In this document: positions 45,996 through 47,268 of the stretch, in pieces | Position numbering within the stretch: the stretch's first letter is position 1 | How the letters are laid out: every line of letters begins with the position of its first letter | The notes under the pieces: generated by a model | The model's database searches: none | What the model saw: only the letters and a program-made list of their open reading frames with translations | Told to the model about the DNA's origin: nothing | Source: Ignavibacteria bacterium RIFOXYB12_FULL_35_14 | GTDB taxonomy: Bacteria > Bacteroidota > Ignavibacteria > Ignavibacteriales > Ignavibacteriaceae | Reading direction: 5' to 3' | Length of the DNA: 64,000 nt | NCBI GenBank assembly: GCA_001803045.1 | Contig: MHAR01000008.1 | Coordinates: 116,877-180,876 of the forward strand | Position numbers and translations under genes: made by a program

Positions 45996-46134
45996 TGGAA
46001 TAATCCATATAGACTATTTAGGTTCCTAGACTTTACAGATTTATTGAGAACTTGTGAGCATAAGCAAGTCAAATAAGTGTATATTTTGAATTTATAAGTG
46101 CTATATTATTGCATTAAAAAAATGGAATTGTCCA

Positions 46135-46473
46135 ATGAATAACGGAAAACCAAAAACTCTTAAATTTAGTTATAATAAAACCTCCAATTATCGTACATAT
46201 AATGTGGATGGAGTATTTGGTGGATTAGCTCCCAAAAACAAAATTTTCATTGAATTTTTTAGTGAAAAATTCCCGATTCCTGATTCAGTCATTCACGAAA
46301 TTTCGGAAGATAAAACTTTAGGAAAAGAGATTGAGAAAAAAGGTTTTGAGGGAATTGTAAGAGAAATAGAGTGTGGAATCTATTTAGATATAGCGACTGC
46401 TGTAGCTATCGCTGATTGGTTACATGCAAGGGTTGATGAATTTAAAAAATTAAAGACTGAGAAAGGTAATTAA
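46135..46473 (+). CDS. Hypothetical protein 1 of an unrecognised three-gene cassette
   Basis: 112 residues. I do not recognise it. The sequence has a beta-rich first half (KFSYNKTSNYRTYNVDG, VFGGLAPKNKIFIEFFSE, FPIPDSVIHEI) followed by REIECGIYLDIATAVAIADWL and a helical tail. The strand-strand-helix plan with a final helix is reminiscent of DUF3467-like proteins, a weak resemblance. No signal peptide. No clear ribosome-binding site lies upstream. It is followed one base after its stop by the second cassette gene. Confidence 0.6.
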   Translation: MNNGKPKTLKFSYNKTSNYRTYNVDGVFGGLAPKNKIFIEFFSEKFPIPDSVIHEISEDKTLGKEIEKKGFEGIVREIECGIYLDIATAVAIADWLHARVDEFKKLKTEKGN

Positions 46474-46474
46474 T

Positions 46475-46906
46475 ATGGAAGTTGCTTGTAATTTTAATTA
46501 TTACTGGGCATTATTCCCTGTTTTTACAAAGGCGGGTTCAGCTGGAGTTATCAGAATTCCAAATACATCATCGGGAACTATCCAAGAATATTTTGTTCAT
46601 AATGAGAGTAAGGATTTATACTCTCCAGAGTTAATTGATCTATACGACTTAATTGATCATAGATTTAAATTAAAAAAGCCAATTCAAGTGAAGATCATAA
46701 GAGATGAACTCGATACTATTGGCGAAATAAATGAATTGGGAATATATGCTTTTGGGAACTCCCAGTTTGAGGTGTTGAGGGAAATTAATAAAGATGTTAC
46801 CGAGTTATTCGAGGAATTATTCAATATAAGTGAAAATCAGTTAGGCAAGTTACCTAGGAAATGGAAAGAAACGTTATTGGAATATGTAGAAAAAGAGGAT
46901 GAATGA
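46475..46906 (+). CDS. Hypothetical protein 2 of the three-gene cassette
   Basis: 143 residues, acidic, cytoplasmic. The core ELGIYAFGNSQFEVLREINKD followed by TELFEEL (residues quoted in parts: ELGIYAFGNSQFEVL) resembles the strand-plus-helix pattern of HicB-like antitoxin domains (alpha-beta, then EAL..L..D). The N-terminus (MEVACNFNYYWALFPVF) is unlike typical HicB. The last four bases overlap the next start (ATGA), so translation of genes 2 and 3 is coupled. Confidence 0.6.
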   Translation: MEVACNFNYYWALFPVFTKAGSAGVIRIPNTSSGTIQEYFVHNESKDLYSPELIDLYDLIDHRFKLKKPIQVKIIRDELDTIGEINELGIYAFGNSQFEVLREINKDVTELFEELFNISENQLGKLPRKWKETLLEYVEKEDE

Positions 46907-47187
46907 TAAGAGATTTTACAGAAAAGGAAATTAGAAAGGCGATTCTTAATAAAGTAAATCCTAAAATAACTCATAAAGCTAAGCATTGGAAAGGTTCAAT
47001 TTATTTGGACAATATTTTCATTTCAAAAGTAAAAATTCCAAATGAACATATAAGAGTTATGAAAGAAAAAAAGTCAAGCTTCATTGCCAAAAGTTTAAGA
47101 CTAGAACATGATAAGTTTAATGAGTTAGTAGAATGTTCATTAAAAGGGCCACAATATTATAAATTACAGAAAGAATTAGGCACTTGA
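46903..47187 (+). CDS. Hypothetical protein 3 of the three-gene cassette (small, basic)
   Basis: 94 residues, rich in lysine (pI clearly basic). Pattern: HKAKHWKGSIYLDNIFISK, KIPNEHIRVMKEKKSS, FIAKSLRLEHDKFNELVECS, LKGPQYYKLQ. The strand-turn-strand followed by a helix and an FxxLVxCxLxxxxY ending suggests a small RNA- or protein-binding fold, distantly like HicA-type toxins, but I cannot confirm it. It overlaps gene 2 by four bases. A strong intrinsic terminator lies 55 bases after its stop, closing the cassette. Confidence 0.6.
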   Translation: MIRDFTEKEIRKAILNKVNPKITHKAKHWKGSIYLDNIFISKVKIPNEHIRVMKEKKSSFIAKSLRLEHDKFNELVECSLKGPQYYKLQKELGT

Positions 47188-47241
47188 CATCCCATTGATT
47201 TTTGCTTTTAATAATTAAGAACATAGCAAATATTTTCAGAC

Positions 47242-47268
47242 GCCCGACTAATCATCGGGCTTTTTTTT
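47242..47268 (+). terminator. Intrinsic terminator closing the three-gene cassette
   Basis: GCCCGA (47242-47247), loop CTAATCA, TCGGGC (47255-47260) and eight T residues (47261-47268). A textbook hairpin with U tract. It separates the cassette from aroC. Confidence 0.9.

Follow-up and report, generated by a model that had tools for sequence, protein, structure and literature searches.

The three small genes between htrA and aroC in Ignavibacteria bacterium RIFOXYB12_FULL_35_14 are most plausibly read as a horizontally acquired toxin-antitoxin (TA) cassette with the order partner-antitoxin-toxin, in which the product of the first gene (P1) would act in a chaperone-like manner; the probability of this reading as a whole is put at about 0.5. 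The TA nature of the cassette is very probable. P1 is a component common to different TA pairs and the more unusual part of the locus, a point overlooked in a first-pass annotation of the window (the whole stretch of DNA analysed, 64,000 nucleotides).

The cassette consists of three abutting open reading frames (ORFs) on the forward strand (46135-47187), with a gap of 1 base between genes 1 and 2 and an overlap of 4 bases between genes 2 and 3; coordinates and lengths had been given correctly in the first-pass annotation. Gene 1 (46135..46473, +; P1, 112 aa) is the usual leading gene of these cassettes, gene 2 (46475..46906, +; P2, 143 aa) encodes the putative antitoxin and gene 3 (46903..47187, +; P3, 94 aa) the putative toxin with a predicted HicA-like fold. 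P2 is acidic (pI 4.7, charge -10.3) and P3 basic (pI 9.8, charge +9.8), which, as calculated from the sequences, is a charge pattern as in TA pairs. The AT-rich stretch from htrA to gene 1 (45996..46134, +) is the presumed location of the cassette promoter; promoter-like sites in this stretch were not above shuffles, its best inverted repeat (15 nt) was 73% complementary, and no convincing operator was found upstream of gene 1. The three 500-base steps with the cassette had a GC content of 0.29-0.32, compared with 0.31-0.41 for the nine flanking steps. None of the three proteins reached a family cut-off in Pfam or NCBIfam, none gave a match better than E 0.018 in PADLOC and PHROGs, and PDB sequence searches yielded no useful match. 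A housekeeping identity of the trio, which the earlier annotation had raised as the counter-case, was rejected, no match above cut-off having been found in these four libraries.

Judged from the comparison with related genomes, the cassette is a mobile, horizontally acquired insertion between two housekeeping genes. The insertion site was located via AroC in 14 relatives of the family. In 13 of these, htrA and aroC adjoin, with none of the three proteins found in the spacer or next to the pair; in the remaining relative (G007), the 1,089 bases preceding aroC were read and no htrA was found there. The empty site in 13 of 14 relatives led to the rejection of the trio as a conserved local gene set and agrees with the earlier view of a mobile TA-like module among housekeeping genes. 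The hairpin at 47242..47260 (+), followed by a T-run, had been taken for the cassette's own terminator, a claim that did not hold: a hairpin and T-run of the same plan were present in all seven cassette-free spacers read (7 of the 13), with stems GCCCG...CGGGC in five and GTCCC...GGGAC in two. The cassette was thus inserted upstream of a pre-existing terminator of the htrA-aroC spacer, which now also lies downstream of gene 3. By count alone there was no excess of terminator-like hairpins (1 vs 0.6, sd 0.8, in shuffles). The search for the trio in other genomes, as proposed in the first-pass annotation, found it in the same order in G031, on another contig (C31), with identities to the window of 61% (P1), 44% (P2) and 68% (P3), so that the grouping is more than chance; the htrA and aroC of G031 itself adjoin. 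G001, the only other member of the genus searched, was without P1.

An AlphaFold model of P3 (19 rows, pLDDT 86, pTM 0.75) gave no significant match in Foldseek. In a second structural comparison the top rows were 1whz, an unnamed protein (Z 8.0), HicAB 6g26 (Z 6.6, 61 residues, 2.1 A), the TA complex 5yrz (Z 5.5), which we take to be HicBA, and HicAB 6hpb (Z 3.6), followed by a next row at 2.8. With this tool a Z under 8 can reflect a common arrangement; in this case the top rows agree and cover one domain. P3 is accordingly modelled with a HicA (dsRBD-like) fold and predicted to be a HicA-like toxin. The protein had no match in Pfam, including PF07927 (HicA_toxin), and a gene 3 product of a sister cassette (L013, type B) scored 25.4 bits against the same family, whose cut-off is 27. 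Lys17, His28 and Cys78 were invariant across the 19 gene 3 rows; HicA toxins have a conserved catalytic histidine. The faint HicA-like pattern noted earlier for protein 3 was borne out by the predicted fold, whereas the equally faint HicB-like pattern of protein 2 was not supported, P2 having no match to HicB models in the family libraries; for this reason the pair was not filed as HicAB.

A gene 3 profile matched 26 of 395 genomes of the phylum. P1 was present at five of the 30 loci fetched with it (G082, G244, G425, G000 and G211) and different genes lay upstream at the others, so the HicA-like toxin family is in general independent of P1. At a number of loci (L043-L048, L050 and L051, from genus g98, as well as L054 and L052) a far longer upstream gene ends within or ahead of the HicA-like homologue; its intact copies encode about 336-362 aa, and that of L050 is split. 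The three of these large genes that were scanned (L046, L052 and L054) had no family match. Such loci possibly represent another antitoxin architecture.

The P1 profile matched 17 of 395 genomes of the phylum and 6 of 80 genomes of the family, together 22 different genomes including the window's own; beyond these, P1 was found on three viral contigs and one megaplasmid. Complete three-gene sets led by P1 were present in 14 of the 22 genomes, in which the ORFs beside P1 were read, and on all three viral contigs. Four further genomes hold incomplete or broken sets: in G023 the contig ends where gene 3 would be, in G211 both P1 and gene 3 are interrupted, in G419 the gene 3 ORF is 57 aa long, and in G327 no gene 3 was seen. 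In the remaining four, all of genus g146 (L014-L017), no TA pair was recognised by eye beside P1; these solitary genes are comparable to solitary SecB. A literature search of titles and the starts of abstracts, with preprints, most subscription papers and supplements outside its scope, returned no description of the P1 family or of its link to TA systems.

The 14 complete sets fall into five types. Type A is that of the window (G000, G031), type B has a longer gene 2 and a HicA-like gene 3 (G009, G034, G463, G082, G425, G244), type C has YafQ (G240, G295, G317; gene 3 matching YafQ, PF15738, at 2.3e-26 and RelE/StbE at 9.2e-22), type D an undescribed pair (G194, G288) and type E a second undescribed pair that is only a putative TA system (G279). 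Gene 3 is therefore HicA-like in eight of the 14 sets, the window included, and YafQ/RelE in three. Because only two genomes yielded the window-type pair, the case for its dependence on P1 is drawn from the other types. The tree built from 18 P1 proteins has one clade (99/98) that unites the three type C, the three type D and one type B member (G244), and the remaining type B rows fall outside it; the mixture of types within one clade means that the downstream pair has been exchanged beside P1.

On the viral contigs (L145:3001-4224, L146:2944-4172 and L144:2887-4707) P1 is the first gene of the trio in every case. Two of the contigs carry D-type pairs, whose gene 3 products share 51% and 40% identity with the G194 protein; the third trio has a Panacea antitoxin (PF13274, 4.6e-12) as gene 2 and an undescribed gene 3 of 229 aa. 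A large serine recombinase is encoded upstream on the Panacea-bearing contig, and one D-type gene 2 (L145:3341-3838) showed a weak match (2.6e-5) to the C-terminal portion of PDC-M32A, a candidate defence family. The megaplasmid is that of Methylorubrum extorquens AM1 (P1 match 4e-9), where no pair was recognised beside P1; the gene (L009:5974-6327) is unannotated and, by eye, has transposase-like ORFs as neighbours. Searches of plasmids with the P1 members L021 and L018 returned this megaplasmid only, and those with P2 and P3 no match of use. P1 gave nothing of use among phage records, and neither did viral scans with P0001, A13 and A4; a predicted 112-aa phage protein was a match to P1 (2.5e-6, 28% identity).

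In P2, residues 1 to about 75 form a variable N-terminal region, and the C-terminal part can be aligned with gene 2 of other HicA-like cassettes. YafQ antitoxins with and without P1 were compared in genus g98, where YafQ was found in 33 of 65 genomes. Thirty of these loci were fetched and 28 YafQ-like ORFs read, 23 of them with an ORF directly upstream; P1 was present at 3 of the 23. Regarding the 20 P1-free loci, 14 have antitoxins of the DinJ/RelB type (by eye), five (L070, L071, L072, L075, L085) pair a more divergent toxin with an antitoxin of another type, and L099 is different again. L076, the one P1-free antitoxin of the DinJ/RelB type that was scanned, matched PF04221 at 1.1e-21 over residues 4-83, whereas the P1-linked YafQ antitoxins had no RelB family match. 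Two of the latter resemble L076 over their C-terminal 37-38 residues only, L089 at residues 50-86 (23 of 37 identical) and L095 at residues 75-112 (20 of 38 identical), and differ from it in the N-terminal half. The N-terminal half of RelB and DinJ holds the ribbon-helix-helix. The g98 YafQ pairs with and without P1 offer a natural experiment, with the same toxin family, a similar C-terminal tail and different N-termini.

N-terminal differences were also found in types B and D. The type B antitoxin L027 (with P1) matches L037 (without P1) from residues 72 and 40 onward, respectively, and the type D antitoxin L023 (with P1) matches L102 (without P1) from residues 46 and 5 onward. The P1-free D-type copies of g98 (L102, L103, L104 and L106) are poor controls, because their toxin ORFs are truncated (108, 74, 74 and 65 aa, compared with 123 and 126 aa beside P1) and look decayed; their antitoxins have a shortened N-terminus. 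These copies were rejected as free-standing systems and look like remnants. At two other loci (L105:1468-3193, -, and L107:203-1878, +) a D-type pair is preceded by a different first gene of 221 aa, which is not P1 and had no family match; it is perhaps an alternative third component.

Among 63 cross-type pairs of 13 N-terminal segments, two (L095-L023 and L095-L027) were equalled by none of 1000 shuffles, the types concerned being YafQ (L095), HicA-like (L027) and D (L023). With 5000 shuffles, the number scoring as good was 0 for L095-L027, 1 for L095-L023, 49 for L095-L022, 160 for L022-L027 and 1140 for L023-L027; the segment of L089 resembled none of the others in this test. The evidence for a putative shared N-terminal module comes through L095 and does not extend to all pairs, the likeness being pairwise only. 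The idea that the N-terminal extensions are generally hydrophobic and resemble signal peptides was rejected by control ORFs: the median hydrophobicity was 0.95 in 19 P1-linked antitoxins vs 2.21 in 47 ORFs of the window, and a value of 1.6 was reached by 5 of the 19 and 33 of the 47, the controls including membrane proteins and perhaps non-genes.

The model of P1 (17 rows, pLDDT 79.6, pTM 0.53) is built of five strands and a single long C-terminal helix, with the first 12 residues poorly predicted and no helix-turn-helix. A Foldseek search against solved structures gave nothing significant, and a second structural comparison gave COMMD proteins (Z 5.5), Pur-alpha (Z 4.7) and PC4 (Z 4.3), all in the range of this tool for chance arrangements. 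No SecB chain occurs in the match tables, which has no bearing either way. By sequence, P1 was rejected as a SecB homologue, as 91 of 150 shuffles scored as good as its profile against six SecB sequences. P1 matched none of the DNA-binding families in the family libraries, and its pI is below 7 in 16 of 18 members, the exceptions being the window's own (7.8) and that of G031.

Compared with a DUF3467 profile, P1 showed likeness over its last strand and helix, with a score of 22.9 vs a shuffle maximum of 17.4 (0 of 150 as good); the profile probability was 14% with P1 as query and 68% in the reverse direction, and below 1% for all other family pairs tested. P1 itself did not match PF11950 (DUF3467). 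As the DUF3467 alignment is shallow and drawn from near relatives only, the likeness is taken as a lead and not as an assignment. A strongly conserved DUF3467 gene of about 108 aa is present in 31 of 31 relatives searched (G000:C23:71113-71367 and 30 relatives, L108-L122), and the one PF11950 match in G000 lies on a contig other than that of the cassette. On profile similarity, this conserved gene is perhaps distantly related to P1.

In the preferred reading P1 is a dedicated partner of the antitoxin, and its most likely role is to stabilise the antitoxin in the manner of the SecB-like chaperones of toxin-antitoxin-chaperone (TAC) modules; drawn by analogy, this chaperone mechanism has roughly an even chance of being correct. 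We infer toxicity, neutralisation, binding of P1 to the antitoxin and chaperone action as follows. Gene 3 would encode a HicA-fold toxin, probably an RNA-targeting growth inhibitor, which the C-terminal part of P2 would bind and neutralise. The N-terminal region of P2 would provide the docking or 'addiction' module to which P1 would bind during or just after synthesis of the antitoxin, and the antitoxin bound by P1 would stay folded or shielded from proteases. If P1 were lost or titrated away, the antitoxin would fail and the toxin would be freed. P1 and the docking region together could serve as a chassis for different antitoxin-toxin pairs.

The main rival, considered unlikely, is that P1 regulates transcription as a separate protein, like PaaR2 or like omega, the separate regulator of omega-epsilon-zeta systems; the antitoxin would have lost its DNA-binding part and P1 would repress the operon instead. 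The layout is alike, with an extra gene first, then antitoxin and toxin, the P1-linked YafQ antitoxins have no RelB N-terminal half, and the modelled structure of P1 is weakly like the nucleic-acid-binding Pur-alpha and PC4. PaaA2 likewise has no DNA-binding domain, according to PMC8630535. Against this stand the absence of a match of P1 to DNA-binding families, a model that shows no helix-turn-helix, a pI mostly below 7 (with the window's own P1 among the exceptions) and the stretch upstream of gene 1, in which no clear operator was seen. The chaperone is favoured over the repressor because no DNA-binding family was matched by P1, because 16 of 18 P1 proteins are acidic, and because the gene 2 N-termini differ in types B and D as well. 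The loss of the RelB N-terminal half where P1 is present would also suit a split antitoxin, in which P1 is a structural subunit that takes over from a lost dimerisation part and itself contributes directly to toxin neutralisation, with no chaperone action; tripartite TA systems with three interacting proteins exist, such as HipBST. This is rather improbable, as one P1 family serves unrelated toxins and direct contact between P1 and the toxin would need to be very general.

It is decidedly improbable that P1 takes no part in neutralisation and is a hitchhiker or accessory, such as a trigger or a phage-related protein. P1 does occur on viral contigs and, in four g146 genomes, beside no recognisable pair, and Panacea TA loci occasionally hold accessory third genes, as PMC8832971 indicates; however, the gene order is constant, with the genes adjacent or overlapping, across no fewer than three recognised TA types (HicA-like, YafQ and Panacea), and the antitoxin N-termini are changed where P1 is present. 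Very little credence is given to the view that the window's P2 and P3 do not form a TA pair and that the HicA-like fold of P3 has a different RNA-binding role. Neither protein reaches a family cut-off and the Z values of P3 may reflect a common arrangement, but three of its four best structural matches are TA complexes, the charges of P2 and P3 are opposite, the distribution is patchy, the cassette is an insertion, and sister cassettes contain bona fide toxin families.

More tentatively than the chaperone mechanism itself, the cassettes may represent a new chaperone-addicted TA type, in which a DUF3467-like chaperone unrelated in sequence to SecB is coupled to antitoxins whose N-terminal domain was exchanged for a docking module, as a plug-in chassis under unrelated toxins in bacteria and phages. 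If true, this would hint at a role in protein handling for DUF3467, an uncharacterised family, and antitoxin chaperone addiction would have arisen more than once, from different protein families.

Regarding known systems, the cassette is like HicAB in the predicted fold of P3 and in the sister protein L013, which scored just below the HicA cut-off, and unlike it in that P2 has no HicB family match and the toxin gene stands third, after the genes for P1 and P2. DUF3467 (PF11950) shares with P1 the profile similarity over the last strand and helix, whereas P1 has no PF11950 match and is patchy in occurrence, DUF3467 being present in every relative searched. In Panacea and NetFlax systems one module is combined with many toxins, as outlined in PMC8832971 and PMC10440598; this is also the case here, and one P1 cassette has a Panacea antitoxin, but the shared element there is the neutralising antitoxin domain, whereas here it is a separate gene and, in part, the N-terminal segment of the antitoxin. 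With paaR2-paaA2-parE2 the cassette has in common the extra gene in first position; PaaA2 has no DNA-binding domain, and neither P2 (in the four family libraries) nor the P1-linked YafQ antitoxins (for RelB) gave a family match. PaaR2 is CI-repressor-like (PMC8630535), whereas P1 has no DNA-binding family match and its model no helix-turn-helix. The nearest parallel in function is TAC. In these systems, as described in PMC5105189, a SecB-like third protein serves HigBA, MqsRA and HicAB via a transferable antitoxin extension (ChAD), which is C-terminal on the antitoxin and functional when grafted at the N-terminus of unrelated proteins, and the chaperone gene of Mycobacterium tuberculosis TAC is listed last. 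P1, in contrast, is not SecB-like by sequence and its gene comes first, and the differing antitoxin region is N-terminal, standing in the YafQ case where RelB has its N-terminal half. Common to both are the three-gene TA cassette, a third protein that accompanies several unrelated TA families, and a matching special region of the antitoxin.
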